A stretch of 64,000 nucleotides of DNA from Gluconobacter vitians (GTDB taxonomy: Bacteria; Pseudomonadota; Alphaproteobacteria; Acetobacterales; Acetobacteraceae): NCBI RefSeq assembly GCF_015244565.1, contig NZ_JABCQG010000008.1, forward strand, positions 62,001 to 126,000. Direction: 5' to 3'. The position numbers and the translations under genes are program-made. A model generated the notes under the pieces. The model was not told the DNA's origin, ran no database searches, and saw only the letters and a program-made list of their open reading frames with translations. Below are positions 2-46,221 of this stretch, piece by piece; position 1 is the stretch's first letter; the number at the start of each line of letters is the position of its first letter.

Positions 2-661
2 AACCTCACCAGCTACTGGGACCAGAATGTCGGCGCTTCGATGGGTTTCCTCGACCGCGTCGAGATCTCCTACACCCACAACTTCTTCCAGACCCGCGGC
101 ACCGGCGCAAAACTTGGCATCGGCAATGGCTACCAGTTCGATCTCGACGTCGCGGGTGCGAAGGTTCGCCTTTTCGGTCATGTCGCGGACAATACCCTGA
201 TCCCGCAGGTCGCCATCGGCGGCATGTACAAGCATGACAGTGATGGCAAGGTCATCCACGAAGTCGGCTCGATGCACACGGATGGTGGAGACGCCTATCT
301 CGCCGTCACCAAGCTGTTCCCGAAAGTCGGCATCCTGATCGACACCACCGTCCGCTTCACCAAAGGGAACGAGTGGGGCATCCTCGGCTTCGGCGGTGAC
401 AAGGACAACAACTATCATGCCCAGTTCGAAGGCTCACTCGGCTATTTGCCGTCCTTCATCCCCGGCCTGGTCGTCGGCGTCGAATACCGCACCAAGCCGC
501 GCAATCAGCGCTTCACCGACGAAAGCAACTGGTTCGACGTTTACACCAGCTATTTCGTCAACAAGCACCTGAACGTGACGCTGGCCTATGTGTCTCTGGG
601 TACGATCGCGACTTACAAGGATCAGACCGGCTTTTATTTTTCCGCCCAGACAGGATTCTGA
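2..661 (+). CDS. DUF3034 family protein, 3' part (5' end outside window)
   Basis: The reading frame is open from base 2, so the gene starts upstream of the window; about 219 C-terminal residues are visible. Alternating beta-strand pattern, frequent glycines and a terminal phenylalanine (ending QTGF) suggest a beta-barrel-like outer-membrane or secreted protein. The sequence resembles the DUF3034 family: motifs such as FLDRVEIS, LFGHV, FGGDKD and NKHLNVTLAYVSLG match what I remember of that family. Function is unknown. It runs convergently into the purine permease with a structured repeat between them. Confidence 0.8.
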   Translation, partial: NLTSYWDQNVGASMGFLDRVEISYTHNFFQTRGTGAKLGIGNGYQFDLDVAGAKVRLFGHVADNTLIPQVAIGGMYKHDSDGKVIHEVGSMHTDGGDAYLAVTKLFPKVGILIDTTVRFTKGNEWGILGFGGDKDNNYHAQFEGSLGYLPSFIPGLVVGVEYRTKPRNQRFTDESNWFDVYTSYFVNKHLNVTLAYVSLGTIATYKDQTGFYFSAQTGF

Positions 662-669
662 CGTGACGT

Positions 670-780
670 TCCGGGCTCTGCCCGGGCCCGGCAGGGATCT
701 CAATCCCTGCAGCCTGATTTCATGAATTGGTTTCCAAAGGCCCCCGGCCTTTGGCGGGTTTCAGGGCAGAGCCCTGAGCC
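670..780. repeat. Structured intergenic repeat, copy A
   Basis: This gap between convergent genes is nearly filled by an element that recurs at 40858-40963. It has two inner hairpins: GCAGGGAT (691-698) with ATCCCTGC (703-710), and CCAAAGG (734-740) with CCTTTGG (748-754). An outer perfect 11-base stem closes them: GGGCTCTGCCC (673-683) with GGGCAGAGCCC (764-774). The whole can fold as a three-way junction in RNA or as a cruciform in DNA. It may also end transcription from both sides. It resembles dispersed repeats I associate with acetic acid bacteria, which is an inference. Confidence 0.75.
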
Positions 781-2184
781 TCACCCCTCCCGGATCCGCT
801 CATCAATCAGCGCCTCACGCGGCACATCCGTCGCATACGCCGCCTCATGAATTGTCCGCTTCACGTTGAAAATCAGGTGCAGCAGGATCGCTGACAGGGA
901 CCCAAGCGTAATCCCGCTGCCAAACACGATCTTCGCCCACATCGGAAACGTATCGGAGATATGCGGCTGGGCCGTCGCCAGCATGCTCAGCCCGATGCTG
1001 GTGCCAACGATAATCACATTGCTCTGCCGGTTAAAATCCACCCGCGACAGCGTCTGCACCCCCACCACGGCCACGGTCGCGAACATCGCCAGCGCTGCCC
1101 CACCCAGAACCGGCAGTGGCACTGCAGCGACCAGCGCGCCCAGACGCGGCAGGCAGCCAAGCATCATCATGATGACCGCCGCAGCCGCCACGACCCAGCG
1201 GCTCTTCACTCCCGTCATCCGCACCAGACCAACATTTTCGGCAAAGCACGTATAGGGAAAGGAGTTGAGCACGCCGCCCAGCATGGTTGCGATCCCATCG
1301 GCACGCAGCGTGCGGGCAATGTCTTCGGACGTGATCGGCTTGTCGACGATTTCGCCCGTCGCATAGACGTTGCCGATCGTCTCGATCATGGAAATTGTCA
1401 TGACGATCACCATCGACAGGATCGAGACCGGATGAAATGTCGGCATCCCGAAATAGAACGGATGCGTGATGGACAGAAGCGGCGCAGATGCCACATCCCC
1501 GAAATTCGCATCCCCCAGCATCCAGGCCACCAGCGTGCCCAGAACCAGTCCGATCAGCACGGCGATCGTGGCAATAAACCCGCGGAACAGCCGCTGGATC
1601 ACCAGAATGGAGGCCAGTGTCCCCAGCCCGTACCAGATGCTCCGGAGCGGAACATGGTCCTGCATCACGGACGGACTGGCACCCGAGACAATGTCATTCG
1701 CCGCCACTGGTAGCAGCGCCAGACCGATGATGAGAATGATCGACCCCGTCACGACCGGTGGGAAAAATCGCACCAGCCCAGCAAAATGCCGCGCCATCAG
1801 GAGCGTCACGAACCCCGCCACGATGACGGACCCGTAAATGGACAGCAGCCCCGGCGTCCCGCCCCCGACAGCAGAACCAATCGCAATCATCGGCCCCACG
1901 GCCGTGAACGTCACGCCCTGCAACAGCGGCAGCCGAACCCCGACCGGGCCGAACCCCACCGCCTGAAGCAGCGACGCAATCCCGCAGGTGAACAGATCCG
2001 CATCAATCAGATGGATCAGCGTCTCGCGCGGCAGATGCAGCGCACCCGCCACGAGGATCGGTACGATAACCGCCGCCGAATAGAACGCCAGCACATGCTG
2101 CAATCCATAGGCCCCAAGCCGCCAGACCGGCAGTTTCTCGTCAACGGGATGCAGACCGGTCGTCGCGGCGTTCTCGGCAGTCAT
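781..2184 (-). CDS. NCS2 family purine (probable urate/xanthine) permease
   Basis: A 467-residue polytopic inner-membrane protein of the nucleobase:cation symporter-2 family, of normal length with about 14 hydrophobic segments. The NCS2 signature is present as ENVGLVRMTG near residue 316, the form with Glu seen in bacterial urate/xanthine members rather than uracil permeases. It is the last gene of the minus-strand purine operon, starting 9 bases after the HIU hydrolase stop, so urate uptake is the likely role. Xanthine or allantoin cannot be excluded from sequence alone. Confidence 0.9.
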   Translation of the reverse strand: MTAENAATTGLHPVDEKLPVWRLGAYGLQHVLAFYSAAVIVPILVAGALHLPRETLIHLIDADLFTCGIASLLQAVGFGPVGVRLPLLQGVTFTAVGPMIAIGSAVGGGTPGLLSIYGSVIVAGFVTLLMARHFAGLVRFFPPVVTGSIILIIGLALLPVAANDIVSGASPSVMQDHVPLRSIWYGLGTLASILVIQRLFRGFIATIAVLIGLVLGTLVAWMLGDANFGDVASAPLLSITHPFYFGMPTFHPVSILSMVIVMTISMIETIGNVYATGEIVDKPITSEDIARTLRADGIATMLGGVLNSFPYTCFAENVGLVRMTGVKSRWVVAAAAVIMMMLGCLPRLGALVAAVPLPVLGGAALAMFATVAVVGVQTLSRVDFNRQSNVIIVGTSIGLSMLATAQPHISDTFPMWAKIVFGSGITLGSLSAILLHLIFNVKRTIHEAAYATDVPREALIDERIREG

Positions 2185-2193
2185 GAAAAGCCC

Positions 2194-2526
2194 TCAGCTT
2201 CCGCGATAGGTGGAATATCCGAACGGCGCCGCCAGCAGTGGCACATGCGCATGGGCCTCCGCCGCCAGCCCGAACACGATCGGCACCACATCCAGAAATG
2301 GCGGATCGGACAGGACCTGACCGCCTTTGCGGAAGTAATCACTAATCCGGAACTCCAGACAATACGTCCCTTTCGAAACTGCAACATCCCGCAGTTCCGG
2401 GCAACGCCCATCCGTATTGGTCTGCCCTTCAAACAGAACCCGTTCCCCTTGCAGAAGACGCAGCTTCACACCTGCGGCCGGCTTGCCGGAAACCGTATCG
2501 AGAACATGCGTGGACAGAGAACTCAT
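2194..2526 (-). CDS. uraH: 5-hydroxyisourate hydrolase (transthyretin-like)
   Basis: A 110-residue protein that hydrolyses 5-hydroxyisourate, the first unstable product of urate oxidation, to OHCU. It shows the family hallmarks: an N-terminal STHVLDT, and the C-terminal tetrapeptide YRGS (residues 107-110), which is diagnostic of hydroxyisourate hydrolases as against true transthyretin. Length is standard for bacterial forms without a signal peptide, so it should be cytoplasmic. The start codon overlaps the preceding uraD stop by four bases (ATGA), indicating translational coupling. Confidence 0.95.
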   Translation of the reverse strand: MSSLSTHVLDTVSGKPAAGVKLRLLQGERVLFEGQTNTDGRCPELRDVAVSKGTYCLEFRISDYFRKGGQVLSDPPFLDVVPIVFGLAAEAHAHVPLLAAPFGYSTYRGS

Positions 2527-3047
2527 GACGCAACCAGATCCTTCAGACGAAGCGCTGCAATCGCATCAATCTGCGTCAGCGCCTCGGTCAGTTCCTTTTC
2601 GGGAGTGCCAGCCAGACGGCGCTCCATTTCATCCATGATAACGGTTTTCGCAGCTTTCCCGGGTGCGGCCACTTTGCGCACACAGATTACGAACGGCATG
2701 GAAAACCGCGCACGATACGCGTCATTCAGCCCCCGGAAACGCTCATATTCCGCAGGCGTCAGACGATCCAGCCCCGCCGACGCCTGTTCCGAAACGGAAT
2801 GTTCCGTCAGATCCGGATCAATCCCGGCCCGGTGCCCAAGCTCCGGATGCGCCCGCACCAGCGCAAGCTGCGCCTCTGCTCCCGCAGACCGTACAGTCTG
2901 CGCAAACGCGGACAGCATCGCGTCCAAATCCACAAAAGGCCGCGCCTTCAACGCTTCTTCCGCCACCCAGGGCGAATGTTCGTAAAGCCCACCGAACTGC
3001 GCGACAAACGCTTCATCCGACAGCGCATTGACGTCCGAAATCTTCAT
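2523..3047 (-). CDS. uraD: OHCU decarboxylase
   Basis: 2-oxo-4-hydroxy-4-carboxy-5-ureidoimidazoline decarboxylase, 174 residues, which gives S-allantoin. The active-site HPELG motif (a version of HPxLG) and the SEQ segment that follows are present. I chose the start at 3047 (MKISDVNAL) because it overlaps the puuE stop by four bases as ATGA; an upstream start at 3101 would add 18 residues unlike the family. Genes before and after supply the following and preceding pathway steps. Confidence 0.93.
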   Translation of the reverse strand: MKISDVNALSDEAFVAQFGGLYEHSPWVAEEALKARPFVDLDAMLSAFAQTVRSAGAEAQLALVRAHPELGHRAGIDPDLTEHSVSEQASAGLDRLTPAEYERFRGLNDAYRARFSMPFVICVRKVAAPGKAAKTVIMDEMERRLAGTPEKELTEALTQIDAIAALRLKDLVAS

Positions 3048-3955
3048 GCCGGATGCACAGACAGCCAGTGCCGCGCGATATCCAGCCGCGTCGCCACCCA
3101 CACATCCTCATGCTTCTGGATATGCTTCAGAAACTTCAGCAGTCCCATCGCACGCGCCGGTTTACCCGCGAGGCGACAATGCAGCCCGATCGACATCATC
3201 CGTCCGCCCTCGCGATACAGCATGTCGAATGCATCGCGCAGATAGACGAAGAACTGCTCGCCTTCCGTAAAACCGTTCAGCGCTGCGAACTTCATGTCAT
3301 TGGCATCAAGCGTATAGGGCACGATCAGCTGCGCACGGCCGTTGGTGCGCCCATTGGTCCGATCATAATACGGCAGATCATCCGCATAGGAATCGGCGTC
3401 GTAAACAAACCCGCCTTCCTCCGCGACCAGACGCGCCGTGTTTGGGCTCGTGCGTCCCTGGTACCAGCCCAGGGGCCGTTCACCGGTCACTTCGGTATGC
3501 AGCGCAATCGCCTCGCGGATATGCGCCCGCTCCACGTCTTCGGGGAAATCCTGATAATCGATCCAGCGCAGACCGTGAGACGCAATCTCCCAGCCACTCT
3601 CCTTCATGGCCGCCACAGCATCCGGATTGCGGGCCAGCGCCTTCGCCACGCCAAACACCGTCACCGGCATCCCGGCTTCATCGAACAGACGACGCAGCCG
3701 CCAGAACCCGGCCCGGCTGCCATATTCGTACAGGCTCTCCATCTGCGCACAGCGCGCGCCGATAATGGATTTCGTGCCAACCATTTCGGAGAGGAACGCT
3801 TCCGATCCCGCATCGCCATGCAGAACCGAGTTCTCGGCCCCTTCCTCGTAATTGATGACGAACTGCACGGCGATGCGCGCGCCATTCGGCCATTTCGGGT
3901 CAGGCGGCGTGCGGCCATAACCGATCATGTCCCGCGGGTAGCGGTCCTGCGTCAT
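3044..3955 (-). CDS. puuE: Allantoinase, PuuE type (polysaccharide-deacetylase fold)
   Basis: A 303-residue member of the metal-free allantoinase PuuE group, which has the polysaccharide-deacetylase fold and opens the allantoin ring to allantoate. The N-terminal signature YPRDMIGYGRTPP is typical. Start at 3955 (MTQDRYPRD) has GGGAGA just upstream; an in-frame start 18 bases earlier lacks one. It lies 14 bases after the flavoprotein gene in the same transcript. No allantoate-degrading enzyme is in this window. Confidence 0.93.
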   Translation of the reverse strand: MTQDRYPRDMIGYGRTPPDPKWPNGARIAVQFVINYEEGAENSVLHGDAGSEAFLSEMVGTKSIIGARCAQMESLYEYGSRAGFWRLRRLFDEAGMPVTVFGVAKALARNPDAVAAMKESGWEIASHGLRWIDYQDFPEDVERAHIREAIALHTEVTGERPLGWYQGRTSPNTARLVAEEGGFVYDADSYADDLPYYDRTNGRTNGRAQLIVPYTLDANDMKFAALNGFTEGEQFFVYLRDAFDMLYREGGRMMSIGLHCRLAGKPARAMGLLKFLKHIQKHEDVWVATRLDIARHWLSVHPA

Positions 3956-3969
3956 GGGTGTCTCCCTTC

Positions 3970-5415
3970 TCAAAGCACCGGCGGATCGAGGCTGACAAGT
4001 TCTTCCGTGTCATAGGCCAGCAGGCTCGCCAGATGCTTCTCCCCATCCTCGACGAACAGATCCCGCGCAATGCCCCGCGCCAGCTTCTCCACGCCAAAAC
4101 GCATCCCGCTGATGGACGCGCCGGAAAGACCCATGCTCGGCATGGCCCCGAACGTGAAATTGTAGATCGCCGCCAGCATCGGCGCCTTCGGATCTGCCTT
4201 GTCTTTTGGCAGAAACTGGAACCGCGCGCCCAGATACGGATGACTGCCCAGAAGCTCGCTTTCTTCACCAGCCGGCGGCGTGAAGTGATCGCGCCATAGC
4301 ATGACCGAAGACGCAAAATCCTGCGTTTCCGGCCGCTGCGACAAATCGATCGAGAACCCCGTCCCGATGATCAGGAAATCAAACCGCATCTCGCCCTGCG
4401 GCGTCGTCACCACGACCTCATCCCCGTCCATCCGCGTCGCCGTCCAGGGCGTTCCGGGATGGAAGGCGAAGTTCTCATGACGGCGACAGCGCCAGAACGT
4501 GTCCTGCGGCGGCGGCTGGTTCAGGCTGTAGATCTGTCGCATGAAACGCCAGCGCGTCAGATCCGGCAGCTCCGAGAAATGCGCGAGGAAACCCGCATTT
4601 TCCATCCAGCGGTACGGATTGATGGCCGGAATTTTCGCACGACGCAGGCACAGACCCACCCGCCCCGCACCCTTTTCCAGAGCCGTGGCGGCATTGTCGA
4701 ACGCTGAAGCCCCTGCGCCCAGAACACCGATCCGCTTGCCCTTCAGGGCCTCGAAATCAATGTCTTCATGCGTGTGCGCATAAACGGATTTCGGCAGCGT
4801 ATCGGAAATGAAGGCCGGCACATGCCACATCCCGCCGCCCTCGATGCCGGTCGCCAGCACCATCCGCCGCGCCAGACGTACCGTTTCCTGACCGGCCGCA
4901 TTGCGGAACGTCAGCCGCAGCAGCCCGTTGTCCCAGCCGACATGCACCAGTTCCTGATCGTTCACGACTGGGATGTCGAGCGTCTCCCGCACCCAGTCCA
5001 GATAGGCCTGCCAGTCATGGCGGGAAATCTTGTCCAGATCCTCCCAGGCCTTCGCTCCATAACGCGCCTCAAACCAGGACTGCGGCGTGAGATTCGGAAT
5101 CCCGAGGTCCGGCCCCGTCACATGCTTGGGCGTGCGCAGGGTAATCATGCGCGCAAACGTCACCCACGGTCCTTCGCCGCCTTTGGAAGCCTTTTCAAAC
5201 ACTTCCACATTGGTCACACCCTGCCGGCGCAGACCGAAGCAGGACGTGATGCCCCCCTGTCCCGCGCCAATGATGGCCACATCCAGAACCGCCTTCCCGT
5301 CCCGCTCCTGCGTCAGGCTCCAGTTGCCGGTCGCATAGCGGATTTTCGCCAGATCCTCCCGCACACGCTCCGAAAGCGCAGCCAGAGCATCGACGGGAGA
5401 AACGGTGGATGTCAT
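3970..5415 (-). CDS. FAD/NAD(P)-binding monooxygenase-like protein; candidate urate hydroxylase
   Basis: A 481-residue flavoprotein with two Rossmann dinucleotide motifs: GAGQGG at residues 50-55 for FAD and a second GAGASA mid-protein for NAD(P), plus a late IIGTGF strand as in Baeyer-Villiger and N-hydroxylating monooxygenases. It is the first gene of the purine operon. The operon has every step from 5-hydroxyisourate to allantoate but no classical uricase or HpxO-like protein, so this gene is the only visible candidate for oxidising urate. That assignment is inference from context. The start at 5415 (MTSTVSP) is chosen over 5487, which would add an unrelated Cys-rich leader. Confidence 0.8.
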   Translation of the reverse strand: MTSTVSPVDALAALSERVREDLAKIRYATGNWSLTQERDGKAVLDVAIIGAGQGGITSCFGLRRQGVTNVEVFEKASKGGEGPWVTFARMITLRTPKHVTGPDLGIPNLTPQSWFEARYGAKAWEDLDKISRHDWQAYLDWVRETLDIPVVNDQELVHVGWDNGLLRLTFRNAAGQETVRLARRMVLATGIEGGGMWHVPAFISDTLPKSVYAHTHEDIDFEALKGKRIGVLGAGASAFDNAATALEKGAGRVGLCLRRAKIPAINPYRWMENAGFLAHFSELPDLTRWRFMRQIYSLNQPPPQDTFWRCRRHENFAFHPGTPWTATRMDGDEVVVTTPQGEMRFDFLIIGTGFSIDLSQRPETQDFASSVMLWRDHFTPPAGEESELLGSHPYLGARFQFLPKDKADPKAPMLAAIYNFTFGAMPSMGLSGASISGMRFGVEKLARGIARDLFVEDGEKHLASLLAYDTEELVSLDPPVL

Positions 5416-42429: not shown

Positions 42430-42634
42430 ATATTCAGAACGGGGGCGAAGTAAATGGAGAAGGACAGCGCTTAGTTTTCACAGAGCTGTGCTGATCGTTT
42501 TTAACGATTTATTTGCAACACATCCCGGACCGGACTGTTTATGGCTGGTACAGCAACAGTCTTGAAATCCGGACATCCGGCCGCACCTGACGCGGCGTGA
42601 GTATTGTCCTTCCCACGCAAGGAATGCACACACC

Positions 42635-44236
42635 ATGTCATCAACGTCCGCCCAGTCCTCGTCAGGCACCGAAACGGGAGCTGATGGCTCTGTTACTGTA
42701 GTTGGGGGCGCTACCGTCTCGGGACTGACCATCAATGGTGTGACGGAATATGTGCTCGGATCTGCGGTATCGACGATCGTGCACGGATATGAGCATTCCA
42801 TGGTCGGCCCATATGTCCCCGTCACGACAGGGACCCAGATTGTAGAATCCGGTGGCGTCGCGGATCACACCCAAATCCTGTCTGAAATCTATAGTGACGA
42901 CAGCTATATCCTGACGGAAGAAGCTCCTGCCAGCCAGGTCATTCAGAACGGTGGCACCGCTTTTGATACGACCGTCCAGGGGACGGCCGTCGATGCCTAT
43001 GTTGGCGTCGGCCGGGACTATGACGAAGAACTGGAAGCGTATCAGACCGTTGAAAGCGGCGGATATGTCAGCGGCGTTCAGGTTAACGGGGATGCCATTT
43101 CCACGATTGCCGCAGGAGCCTCGGCCAACGATACGGTTCTTCAGGGCTCATCCGCACTTTTCTTCCTCGGGAGTGATGCAAATTCCTGGCACTATGAAAC
43201 CCTTCGCTTCAAGGCCGAACAGGATGTTGAGGGAACGAGCGAAAATGTGACCGTCCAGTCCGACGGACTGCTGATGGTGGACGGGACCGTCCGGAATGTC
43301 ACGGTTTCAAATGGGGGCACCGTTGTCGCTCGTGGTAGCGCAACCCTCTCTGACATTTCCATCGACAGTGGAGGCGTCCTTGAACTGAACGATGCTGATG
43401 TCGTGCTTTCCGACCCCATTACAGTTCACACGTCCGCCGCGTTCATCTTTTCTGATGTCAGCGCTACGAACGGAACATTCAGTGCCGTGGTTGTTCCTGA
43501 CGAAGACGGTGCTACCGGAAATCTGGAAGTGTTTTCCGGAACGACGATGGTCAAGGACATTGCCGTTCAGGGTGACTTCACATCGCCGCTCTATTTCACC
43601 CAGGCCGCAGCCGGGAATTACCTTGAAATGGGGTTCGGCACGCCCTGCTACTGCCCGGGCACCCTGATTGCGACGCCCGGCGGAGAGCGGCCGGTCGAGG
43701 ACCTGAAAATCGGAGATCCCATTCTCACTGCGACAGGTAAAGTCCGGCCGGTTCACTGGATCGGACGGCGCGCCTATGATCCCCTGTTTGCTTACGGCAA
43801 CCGGGATATCCTGCCGGTCCTGATCCAGGCCGGAGCGCTGGCGGAGGGACTGCCGCAACGCGATCTCGTGATTTCACCGCTGCATGCCATGTTCATCGAC
43901 GGTTTTCTCATCCCGGCCCTGCATCTCGTAAACGGGATTTCCATCATCCAGATCAAACGGCCGGAGACGATCCGCTACGTGCATGTCGAGCTCGAAAGCC
44001 ATGATCTTCTGCTGGCCGAGGGAGCACCGTCGGAAAGCTTTCTCGATGACGGCTCGCGCGGGATGTTCCATAACGCCGACGAATACCAAATCCTCTATCC
44101 CGACCAGACCCAGCGGCCGCCGCAATACTGCGCACCCCGCCTTGAAGGCGGCGCCGAACTGGCAGTCATCCACCATCGTCTCCGCACCCGTGCCCTGAAT
44201 CGTCAGGACAGGGCACAGACTGACAGCGCCGCCTGA
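42635..44236 (+). CDS. Strand-loop-strand repeat protein with C-terminal Hint domain
   Basis: 533 residues. Residues about 20-330 carry repeats of the autotransporter strand-loop-strand kind (IVESGG, VIQNGG, TVESGG, VTVSNGG, ISIDSGG). From C338 and C340 (CYCPGTLI) a Hint_2-type domain runs to about 480, with a conserved SPLHAMFIDG block. Hint domains can self-cleave at the Cys, but no splice junction (HN followed by C/S/T) is apparent, so it is not an intein. No classical signal peptide is visible. A glycosyltransferase gene starts 20 bases downstream. Confidence 0.85.
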   Translation: MSSTSAQSSSGTETGADGSVTVVGGATVSGLTINGVTEYVLGSAVSTIVHGYEHSMVGPYVPVTTGTQIVESGGVADHTQILSEIYSDDSYILTEEAPASQVIQNGGTAFDTTVQGTAVDAYVGVGRDYDEELEAYQTVESGGYVSGVQVNGDAISTIAAGASANDTVLQGSSALFFLGSDANSWHYETLRFKAEQDVEGTSENVTVQSDGLLMVDGTVRNVTVSNGGTVVARGSATLSDISIDSGGVLELNDADVVLSDPITVHTSAAFIFSDVSATNGTFSAVVVPDEDGATGNLEVFSGTTMVKDIAVQGDFTSPLYFTQAAAGNYLEMGFGTPCYCPGTLIATPGGERPVEDLKIGDPILTATGKVRPVHWIGRRAYDPLFAYGNRDILPVLIQAGALAEGLPQRDLVISPLHAMFIDGFLIPALHLVNGISIIQIKRPETIRYVHVELESHDLLLAEGAPSESFLDDGSRGMFHNADEYQILYPDQTQRPPQYCAPRLEGGAELAVIHHRLRTRALNRQDRAQTDSAA

Positions 44237-44256
44237 ACCTGAGGGACTTCCCGACT

Positions 44257-46221
44257 TTGACTGCCCCTCTTGTCGGCTATGTCGATCTCTGTGACCGCGA
44301 ACAGTTTGCCGGATGGGCCGTTGATCTGGCCACGCCGGACACTCCGGTGCGGATTCAGGTGCGCGTCAACGGCGAACTGGTGGACGAAACGGACGCCGAC
44401 GGTTTCAGGGCCGATCTTCAGGGCGCGGCACGGGGCGGATACTGCGCCTTTCAGAAAACCTGGCCGGTTCCCCTGCCGCATGAAGGGGCGTTGATCGAAC
44501 TTACTGACGCCCGCGATGACCGTCCTCTGGCCGGCTCTCCGGTCCGGATCCCGCCCCTGCCCGCATCCCTTATGGGGTCGATCGATCTTGCGGACCGCTA
44601 TCACATTGCAGGCTGGGTCCGGGATCAGCTCAACCCCGACCGGACAGTGTGGCTGACAGTCTGGGTGGATGGCCAACCTGCAGGACGGGTTCCTGCCAAC
44701 CGCTTCCGCGCCGATCTGCGCGATGCCGGCTTTGGCACGGGACGGCATGGCTTTCATTATGCCTTTTCTTCCGCGATCGCCCCCCTGACGGATCATGTGA
44801 TCGAACTCCGGCATGGCGATGAGCGCTTCGGCACACCCTGCACGATTTCCGGAACCGGCAACGTCCTGTCCGCAGAGCTGAAGACCCATGTCTCCAGCAT
44901 TCTGCACGGACTGGATACACCCGTTGCACGGGCCGGGGCTCTGGCATTTCTCGTGAGTGAGGCGGACCGCCTCAGGGCACGGGAAAGTGCGGATCTGACG
45001 GCATTGCACGAGCGTGCACAGGCCCGGCGCATGCAGCGCCTCCGGCTTGAGGACAGTGACGCCCTCGCCGATGTTGCTTCGCTGCGGCCTGTTGCCCTGT
45101 TCATTGATGACCGCGCTCCTGATCCCCAACGGGATGCCGGTTCGGTCGCGTTCCTGTCGCATGTTCATACCGCCCAAAGCCTCGGCTACCGATGCTGCTT
45201 CATGGCATCCCGCTTTCCTCCCGGCGAAGAGGACCGCCTGCGTCTGGAGCAGCAGGGGATCGAATGTCTGATGCCGCCTGTCTTCACCTGCCCTGAAGAA
45301 GCGCTCAGGCAACTGGGAGCCGGGCTTGAAGTGGTCTATCTGCACCGGCTCAACAATGCGGAGAGCTATTCCGCCTTGGTGAGGGCCTTTGCGCCCACCG
45401 CCACGATGATCTGGAGCGTGGCCGATCTGACGTCCCTGCGCCTCCCCCGTCAGGCAGCCGTGGAATCCCGTCCCGAACTCGAACGGTTCGCCAGCCGTCT
45501 CGAGGTCCGGGAAAACATGTGTGCCTGGCTGGCGGATTTCGTGCTGACACATTCACCCGTCGAAGCCGGGCGCCTGTCACGCACCGTCCCCACAGCCAAC
45601 GTGCATGTCGCCCCCTGGACCGTGCCGGTATTTCCCCGCAAAGGACGGTCCCCGGATACTCCCGTCATCGCCTTCGTGGGGCATTTCGCCCATGACCCCA
45701 ATCTCGATGCGGCGAAATGGCTCGTTCTGACCATTATGTCGCTTCTGCGTGAGGCCGTCCCGGGCATCCGGTGCCGCCTGATCGGAAGCGCCATGCCGCA
45801 TGCCGTCCATATGCTGGCGGCAGAAGACGTGGAAATTATGGGGGCCGTGCCGGATCTGGAAGAGGCTCTGGCAGACGTCTCCCTGTGTGTTGCGCCGCTC
45901 CGCTTCGGGGCCGGGATCAAGGGCAAGGTGCTCGAAGCCTGGGCGGTCGGTCTGCCGATCGTCATGACTCCGATCGCAGCCGAAGGTCTGGTAGACCCTG
46001 CCGACCCGATATGGCGAAACTCCATCGCCGATACACCCTCCACGTTCGCAGAGCGGATCATCGCATTTCTGGACCCTGCCACGGGCCAGGAGCAGGTTAC
46101 GGCGGGGCAGAACCTTCTGAAAACCCGTTTCTCGGAACGGGCTGTTTTCAATGCCCTCTCCCCGCTTTTCCCTCCAGTGCCTCAGGAGATGGACGACATA
46201 GGCCCCATGGTCCTGAACTGA
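44257..46221 (+). CDS. GT4-like glycosyltransferase with two N-terminal repeat domains
   Basis: 654 residues, TTG start after GAGGGA. Residues 1-205 are two related domains of about 95 residues (GYVDLCDREQFAGWAVD and GSIDLADRYHIAGWVRD, each with a later FRADL block). A coiled linker follows. The C-terminal half is a GT-B glycosyltransferase with FGAGIKGKVLEAWAVGLPIV, typical of family GT4. Coupled to the Hint protein gene, so surface-protein glycosylation or polysaccharide synthesis is possible. Confidence 0.85.
   Translation: MTAPLVGYVDLCDREQFAGWAVDLATPDTPVRIQVRVNGELVDETDADGFRADLQGAARGGYCAFQKTWPVPLPHEGALIELTDARDDRPLAGSPVRIPPLPASLMGSIDLADRYHIAGWVRDQLNPDRTVWLTVWVDGQPAGRVPANRFRADLRDAGFGTGRHGFHYAFSSAIAPLTDHVIELRHGDERFGTPCTISGTGNVLSAELKTHVSSILHGLDTPVARAGALAFLVSEADRLRARESADLTALHERAQARRMQRLRLEDSDALADVASLRPVALFIDDRAPDPQRDAGSVAFLSHVHTAQSLGYRCCFMASRFPPGEEDRLRLEQQGIECLMPPVFTCPEEALRQLGAGLEVVYLHRLNNAESYSALVRAFAPTATMIWSVADLTSLRLPRQAAVESRPELERFASRLEVRENMCAWLADFVLTHSPVEAGRLSRTVPTANVHVAPWTVPVFPRKGRSPDTPVIAFVGHFAHDPNLDAAKWLVLTIMSLLREAVPGIRCRLIGSAMPHAVHMLAAEDVEIMGAVPDLEEALADVSLCVAPLRFGAGIKGKVLEAWAVGLPIVMTPIAAEGLVDPADPIWRNSIADTPSTFAERIIAFLDPATGQEQVTAGQNLLKTRFSERAVFNALSPLFPPVPQEMDDIGPMVLN

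Follow-up and report, generated by a model that had tools for sequence, protein, structure and literature searches.

The gene pair and its domains

The window analysed here is a stretch of 64,000 nucleotides from Gluconobacter vitians (contig NZ_JABCQG010000008.1, positions 62,001 to 126,000, forward strand), and our subject is a pair of adjacent genes within it, the first encoding a beta-solenoid protein with a Hint_2 domain (hereafter the Hint protein) and the second a glycosyltransferase (GT) of the GT4 type that begins with two copies of a domain that we call D. The sequence comparisons given below show conservation and codivergence of the pair and its recurrence in the form of single-gene fusions, and so lend good support to the conclusion that the two genes constitute a conserved functional unit. 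The features of the pair, in window coordinates, are as follows.

42619..42623, + strand: putative ribosome site AAGGA of the Hint protein gene (sequence)
42635..44236, + strand: Hint protein gene, 533 aa, ATG start; an in-frame stop lies 72 nt 5' and there is no earlier start
42668..43636, + strand: passenger, a strand-loop-strand-type beta solenoid, residues 12-334 (AlphaFold2 model, TibA and Ag43 matches)
43646..44050, + strand: Hint_2 domain with the intein/bacterial intein-like (BIL) fold, residues 338-472 (PF13403, gp41-1 intein and BIL matches)
43646..43648, + strand: Cys338, predicted autocatalytic nucleophile (first Cys in 55/55 Hint_2 domains)
43652-43654, + strand: Cys340, which completes the CxC signature (67/80 GT-linked Hints)
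43883..43885, + strand: His417 of the [ST]xxH block B motif (55/55)
44069..44074, + strand: His479-Asn480 in RGMFHNA, possible counterpart of the intein terminal His-Asn (70/81 GT-linked)
44242..44246, + strand: putative ribosome site AGGGA of the transferase gene (sequence; orthologues are purine-rich at the same place)
44257..46221, + strand: D-D-GT4 glycosyltransferase gene, 654 aa, TTG start
44269..44550, + strand: D1 domain, residues 5-98, beta-sandwich-like (structure model)
44569..44847, + strand: D2 domain, residues 105-197, a repeat of D1 (structure model, repeat profile)
44872..45045, + strand: residues 206-263, a helical hairpin that follows D2 and precedes the catalytic domain (structure model)
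45091..46176, + strand: GT-B catalytic domain, GT4 type, residues 279-640 (PF13692, GT-B fold matches)
45919..45921, + strand: Lys555 of the FGAGIKGK motif, kept in 77/79 linked units that have a residue there

An earlier note on this DNA had placed the transferase gene 20 bases after the Hint gene, behind a ribosome site of its own, and indeed the gap is exactly 20 nt and contains AGGGA. The TTG start is supported by the orthologues, which use TTG or GTG (ATG in L099) and have a purine-rich site at the same position. A scan for promoters and terminators gave signal at about the level of chance. Carriage as plasmid or phage cargo was considered and rejected: the unit has no plasmid match at blastn sensitivity and just three weak phage matches, all to the transferase.

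The Hint_2 (PF13403) match of the window protein scores 146.5 bits against a cut-off of 28.4 and spans residues 337-472, and the AlphaFold2 model (pLDDT 87.6, pTM 0.76) shows a beta solenoid and an intein fold. The top Protein Data Bank (PDB) match of this model is 4q1q, a TibC-glycosylated fragment of the adhesin TibA (E 2.9e-7), Ag43 is second, and these are followed by inteins (gp41-1) and bacterial intein-like domains, which are seen by sequence as well. The idea of a strand-loop-strand (SLS) adhesin, as the earlier note had it, is upheld by the fold of the solenoid; the TIGR04415 SLS-repeat score (23.1 or 28.5 bits) falls below the cut-off of 30, and the protein has neither a Sec-like N-terminus nor an autotransporter barrel. 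The same repeat model exceeds its cut-off in loci L071, L090, L095 and L099.

The key Hint residues of the window protein are C338, H417 and H456, and among 55 aligned Hint_2 domains the first Cys and the [ST]xxH motif are invariant and the block F His is kept in 54; these are the residues that cleavage before the first Cys would call for. None of the 55 has a His-Asn within 20 residues past the block F His. In the GT-linked Hints of the wider set described below, one lies 23-24 residues past it in 70 of 81 cases, as compared to 6 of 47 other Hint proteins, and in 66 of these 70 the next residue is Ala. Similarly, CxC occurs in 67/80 GT-linked Hints and in 9/47 other Hint_2 domains, where both counts leave out Hint domains below 100 bits and the CxC count also leaves out L194, which reads CYCPET while the pattern requires G before T/S. 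Since CxC and the later His-Asn are common to them, the GT-linked Hints make up a distinct class. The spacing of His479-Asn480 from the block F His exceeds that of inteins and the model has no strand there. This His-Asn is a possible counterpart of the intein terminal His-Asn that might enable a second cut. Hint_2 proteins that have neither D nor GT (L112-L116, L132 and L149 among them) form a second class, in which CxC and His-Asn are mostly lacking.

For the transferase, Glyco_trans_1_4 (PF13692) scores 71.5 bits against a cut-off of 27 over residues 469-605, and the structure model (pLDDT 87.5, pTM 0.64) comprises D1, D2, the helical hairpin and a GT-B fold, the last of which has structural matches among GT4 relatives up to Z 31.1, with the catalytic domain accounting for all the matches listed. 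The two extra N-terminal domains that the earlier note had described are thus recovered in the model (5-98 and 105-197); they are 35% identical to one another and have no credible sequence match in Pfam or the PDB. Hint_2, the SLS solenoid and GT4 are known families; D is undescribed in the libraries searched. It is present in 12 of the 190 genomes searched of the class, our own counted, and Pfam families were found in 4 of 10 scanned D proteins, namely a GT92/GT2-methyltransferase protein, a GT2/GT92 protein, a formyltransferase and a radical-SAM protein with a weak D match. The simplest reading of this company is a general glycan-related role, and D as a docking domain specific to Hint was ruled out on the same grounds. 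Since these enzymes carry D without Hint, D may bind glycans or a common scaffold and not solely the substrate protein, which the earlier note had offered as a possible ligand.

Some other D proteins deserve mention. Hint proteins that end in D without a transferase occur in L111, L145 and L146; in L111:5034-6938 (G000:C24) the Hint-D-D protein is broken inside the second D and is followed, by eye, by type I restriction-modification-like genes, an insertion seeming to have truncated the unit. The window's genome also encodes an 884-aa protein with two D domains and neither Hint nor a GT domain of the window type (L282:4951-7605, G000:C5).

Conservation and fusion of the pair, and loss of Hint

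An orthologous transferase was found in 20 of 25 relatives of the same genus (loci L002-L021), which as assigned takes in Gluconobacter and Neokomagataea (L175, G001), and directly upstream of 17 of the 20, on the same strand, there is an intact Hint gene. Taking the longest open reading frames (ORFs), the two genes are separated by 0-28 nt in 15 of these pairs and overlap in 2. Median identity between the window and the 17 paired orthologues is 38% for the passenger, 77% for Hint, 59% for D1-D2 and 68% for the GT domain, a pattern that, on the sequences, is that of an exposed part which changes quickly, carried by a processing module which is conserved. In one locus, L099:1936-9881, three tandem SLS-Hint genes stand ahead of a single D-D-GT gene.

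To look beyond these orthologues, we assembled 128 non-redundant GT-domain ORFs (of 140) that reached at least 200 bits against our profile in the fetched loci; these loci were picked by GT or Hint matches, and the proportions that follow are therefore biased frequencies. L124, a placeholder of 100 bases, was excluded. Hint-linked transferases number 82, of which 38 lie in one polypeptide of the order passenger-Hint-D-(D)-GT4 (L184, with a weak Hint match of 28 bits, is counted here) and 44 follow a separate Hint gene. Because 38 of the 82 are single fused polypeptides, the window pair is best described as a split form. Linkage to Hint is strongly associated with D, being found for 81 of 97 transferases with D and 1 of 31 without it (Fisher p 1.7e-16, an optimistic value given related sequences and short contigs). 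It holds for 57 of 58 two-D transferases, the exception being L087, which has a Hint remnant, and for 24 of 39 with one D.

The fused ORFs include paralogues in the window's genome and members of other genera, and the named carriers are Gluconobacter, Neokomagataea, Acetobacter, Asaia, Tanticharoenia (weak Hint match), Brytella, Acidisoma and one Methylobacterium. The point of division varies (Hint|DD-GT, Hint-D|D-GT, Hint-D|DD-GT, Hint-DD|GT), and a GT tree built quickly from 107 rows, the checks on which warn of meeting long branches, calls for at least 8 changes between fused and split by parsimony, its starred branches forcing at least 3 for the fused label. Hint and GT distances are correlated across 78 units (Mantel r 0.77, where the best of 1000 permutations gave 0.15), and for far pairs the value is 0.36.

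The earlier note's proposal of a two-gene unit is thus borne out by conservation in the genus (17/20), by fusion (38/82) and by the codivergence of Hint and GT. What that note had set against its own proposal, an unconserved pair or orthologues in polysaccharide clusters without Hint genes, does not describe the genus and is encountered in part elsewhere, for there are 15 single-D and 30 no-D transferases without a Hint neighbour (L098 and L100, which belong to the genus, are among the 30, as are L217, L228, L240 and L251, in which only 0-151 bases lie upstream and a Hint neighbour could not be visible). That the two genes are neighbours by chance or position, with unrelated roles, might be argued from the ten Hint_2 genes of the window's genome, as five have neither D nor GT and four are GT-linked (one of these, on C36, runs off its contig). 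The conserved and codiverging pairs, the repeated fusions and the changes seen after loss of the partner all speak otherwise, and since the fusions already contradict it we consider this explanation scarcely credible.

Two side observations concern the fused and split forms. In L076 a Hint-D ORF (283-3819) overlaps a D-GT ORF (3677-5398) in another frame, and such overlaps, of 29-169 nt between longest ORFs, occur in five genomes (L076, L070, L075, L166, L167); they may represent either coupled translation or a frameshift site. The paralogue at L061:3285-8495 (G000:C14), with orthologues in L064-L069, is a single ORF of 1736 aa that encodes in order a lamin-tail-like start (by eye), an ExeM-type nuclease, a short SLS-like stretch, Hint, D, D and GT4. 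A fused unit of this ExeM type in L169:1616-6867 is divided between two overlapping ORFs by a frame break near the N-terminus.

Natural loss of Hint offers a further view of the partnership. In 3 of the 20 orthologous loci Hint has been lost: L087 retains a remnant of its C-terminus between radA and the transferase, while in L098 and L100 the gene is absent and the transferases lack D1-D2, L100 still having the original ribosome site and TTG start. To gauge change in the transferases we used 58 conserved columns, for whose definition only Hint-linked units of other genera served. Departures from them number 6, 6 and 13 in the three orphans, as compared to 2-6 in the 18 members of the genus that are paired (one-sided Mann-Whitney 0.002, uncorrected for relatedness). 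Lys555 is E in L087 and T in L100 and is kept in L098. Relative to the window, dN/dS of the GT domain is 0.28 in L098, 0.23 in L100 and 0.15 in L087, as compared to 0.14 and 0.16 in two paired orthologues. Taken together, the orphans suggest a dependence of the transferase on Hint as its partner.

These losses bear on the possibility that the GT4 is a surface polysaccharide or lipopolysaccharide (LPS) enzyme, with D binding glycan and the Hint protein serving as acceptor or anchor of the polymer and not as direct substrate, in which case the link to Hint would tie a surface protein to a polymer. Such a role would suit the occurrence of D on GT2/GT92, formyltransferase and radical-SAM proteins, the structural matches of the GT4 to LPS and polysaccharide enzymes among others, a weak similarity to TIGR03087, the PEP-CTERM/XrtA-associated GT family (95.8 bits, below the cut-off of 316.65), and the D-GT genes that stand elsewhere without Hint. 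It does not sit well with the fusions, in which the transferase lies in cis to a protein passenger, with the loss of D1-D2 and of conserved residues when Hint is lost, or with the setting of the gene, which by eye is flanked by radA-like and porin-like genes in four loci (the window, L087, L098 and L100) and by no polysaccharide cluster. We regard it as unlikely, while giving it more weight than any other rival considered here.

Passengers, a separate heptosyltransferase and export

The passengers of the GT-linked units are diverse. Among 80 of the 82 (L184 and L205, with 23 and 15 residues, were left out) and in overlapping sets, 44 have TIGR04415 repeats, 40 match an AIDA-I model, 15 are ExeM/NucH nucleases and 1 has RTX repeats, and some are without any family match. 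By eye, the ExeM-type passengers hold at most a short SLS-like stretch and have no evident signal peptide. Since ExeM/NucH and no-family passengers are included, the acceptor is not simply an SLS adhesin.

Moreover, the window's genome encodes a TIGR04414 O-heptosyltransferase, of the BAHT family that includes Aah and TibC, elsewhere, which scores 566 bits against a cut-off of 200, while TIGR04414 is not among the NCBIfam matches of the window transferase at E<=1. The gene (L152:13589-15028; G000:C8:58642-59817) is stand-alone, 2.2 kb before the start of the window, and no adhesin gene was seen beside it. With a separate enzyme of this family present, SLS repeats need not depend on the window GT4, and the earlier note's suggestion of a transferase dedicated to these repeats is not sustained, in view also of the 15/80 ExeM-type passengers and of D on unrelated glycan enzymes.

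Could the GT4 instead extend a heptose that TIGR04414 has placed on SLS serines, the pair then being the second step of AIDA/TibA-type glycosylation? The 566-bit match is in favour, as is the position of a TIGR04414 gene directly upstream of a fused SLS-Hint-D-D-GT gene in L062/L179 (one locus with two ids) and adjoining the unit in L208. In the other unit loci of the 93, however, no TIGR04414 gene was found within the available flanks, which leaves adjacency in just 2. TIGR04414 exceeds its cut-off in 23 of 60 genomes, our own counted, and G003, G015 and G021 have intact pairs without such a match; the short SLS-like stretch of the ExeM-type passengers also fits poorly. From this distribution, the GT4 is not the obvious enzyme for SLS repeats, nor does it simply act second to that enzyme, and we hold the extension of heptose to be improbable.

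The order of the fusions, in which a passenger and Hint precede a C-terminal enzyme, resembles that of pretoxin Hint proteins and might point to a system like the polymorphic toxins, whose beta solenoid would deliver the GT into other cells for Hint to release there. Yet in 44 of the 82 linked units the genes are split, which puts the GT outside the delivered chain, and the C-terminal enzyme is a conserved GT4 where a variable toxin would be looked for. Passengers that are themselves nucleases and the persistence of Hint-less copies argue in the same direction, and delivery of this kind is very improbable.

With regard to export, a classical autotransporter was rejected: the barrel PF03797 has 0 matches in the window's genome, and a simple hydropathy test found no hydrophobic N-terminus in the window Hint protein, which is not among the 5 of 76 passengers that have such a stretch by this test. 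RTX-type repeats ahead of Hint in some of the D/GT-free Hint_2 proteins (L132 and L149 by eye, and by RTX-type models) suggest that some Hint proteins at least leave the cell by a type I system. Each of 26 genus genomes encodes a single type I HlyD over cut-off. In ours it lies in L292 (G000:C6:116000-134000), where this profile finds its one type I secretion locus, where its neighbours encode an ABC exporter, a Sel1 protein, a GT2-GT4 two-domain protein and a GT4. Because HlyD is found in 59 of the 60 family genomes searched, including G040-G042, which are without Hint_2, the type I system is a candidate and no more.

A proposed modular precursor and its relation to known systems

The aggregate data bring us to a specific proposal, which we consider about evenly balanced between right and wrong: the two genes would encode, in split form, a modular precursor that modifies itself, passenger-Hint-D(-D)-GT4, and that undergoes glycosylation and cleavage. 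In this scheme the GT4 would take a cytoplasmic nucleotide sugar and glycosylate the Hint-tagged precursor, the acceptor being the passenger or a Hint-proximal part common to all passengers; the D domains would serve to position this acceptor or a glycan on it. Hint would form a thioester at its first Cys and be cleaved there, perhaps also after the His-Asn behind Hint, and cleavage would free the modified passenger from Hint and, in the fusions, from D-D-GT; the scheme allows for Hints with or without the terminal His-Asn. Release would occur before or during export, which would follow a non-Sec route for which the single type I system is the foremost candidate. In split units, the partners may be held together by translation from adjacent starts, and one transferase could serve several Hint proteins. 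The passenger fold, being that of the glycosylated adhesin TibA, is counted as support.

A number of observations weigh against this precursor scheme. The passengers are diverse (44/80 SLS, 15 ExeM-type) and point to no common acceptor: within 120 residues before Hint, TIGR04415 is weakly commoner in GT-linked units (17/80) than in others (4/46), and a regular expression for SLS coils, at 25/80 and 13/46, brings out none either. Pro, which is unfavourable to thioester reactivity ahead of Cys, precedes the first Cys in 67/80 GT-linked Hints. The GT2/GT92, formyltransferase and radical-SAM enzymes have D without Hint, transferases with D and without Hint are also found, and in other genera D-GT occurs without a nearby Hint, once in a Hint_2-free genome (G040); the D-GT module therefore also has Hint-free roles. 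The orphan evidence comes from 3 genomes and probably from two events of loss, not three, since L098 and L100 share substitutions. Within it, the dN/dS of L087 gives no sign of relaxation, and L099, which is paired, departs at 6 columns, equal to two of the orphans.

A bolder variant is that Hint conjugates the passenger to a glycan. Hedgehog passes a protein C-terminus to cholesterol, and by analogy the thioester at the C-terminus of the passenger would be passed to a glycan assembled or presented by D-GT4, giving a C-terminal glycan anchor, after which the His-Asn would free the machine. The fusions would then be the complete one-chain machine and the window its two-chain form. Were this true, a glycan anchor of adhesins and nucleases would replace the C-terminal sorting tags that such proteins bear in other bacteria, a consequence that we mention while judging conjugation itself to be quite improbable. 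The unit offers a testable partner and role for the Hint_2 proteins of acetic acid bacteria, so far unexplained, or at any rate for those among them that are GT-linked. That adhesins can have glycosylation dedicated to them is known. In the open-access literature searched we found neither the Hint-D-GT4 module, fused or split, nor any GT that an intein-type domain joins in one chain to the secreted protein presumed to be its substrate.

In published reports, TibC, which also acts on AIDA-I, adds heptose to TibA serines (PMC4358343), a 2008 survey sets out types of bacterial intein-like domains and a further bacterial Hint subgroup (PMC2362128), and PF13403 figures, in a genome comparison from 2025, as one of the features of marine Rhodobacteraceae that grow fast (PMC12487129). 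As modelled, the window pair resembles AIDA-I/Aah and TibA/TibC in combining an SLS solenoid passenger with an adjacent glycosyltransferase gene. Unlike in those systems, the enzyme is a GT4 without a TIGR04414 match in a genome that has a separate TIGR04414 enzyme, the passenger has neither a Sec-like N-terminus nor an autotransporter barrel, and Hint stands between passenger and enzyme. With Hint, intein and BIL domains the window protein shares the intein fold, the nucleophile Cys, the block B [ST]xxH and the block F His, while GT-linked proteins differ from them in having no His-Asn within 20 residues past the block F His and one at 23-24 residues, followed by Ala; D-GT comes next, an arrangement that is not described in the papers searched. 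Known ExeM/NucH nucleases carry C-terminal sorting tags; as the passenger kind of 15/80 GT-linked units, their relatives here have a C-terminal part that consists of an SLS-like stretch, Hint, D-D and GT4. Finally, serine-rich repeat adhesins are modified in the cytoplasm, before accessory secretion, by the GT4 enzymes GtfA/GtfB with added domains, and in comparison the window system has another passenger, a Hint domain and, in its relatives, fusion of the enzyme to the passenger.

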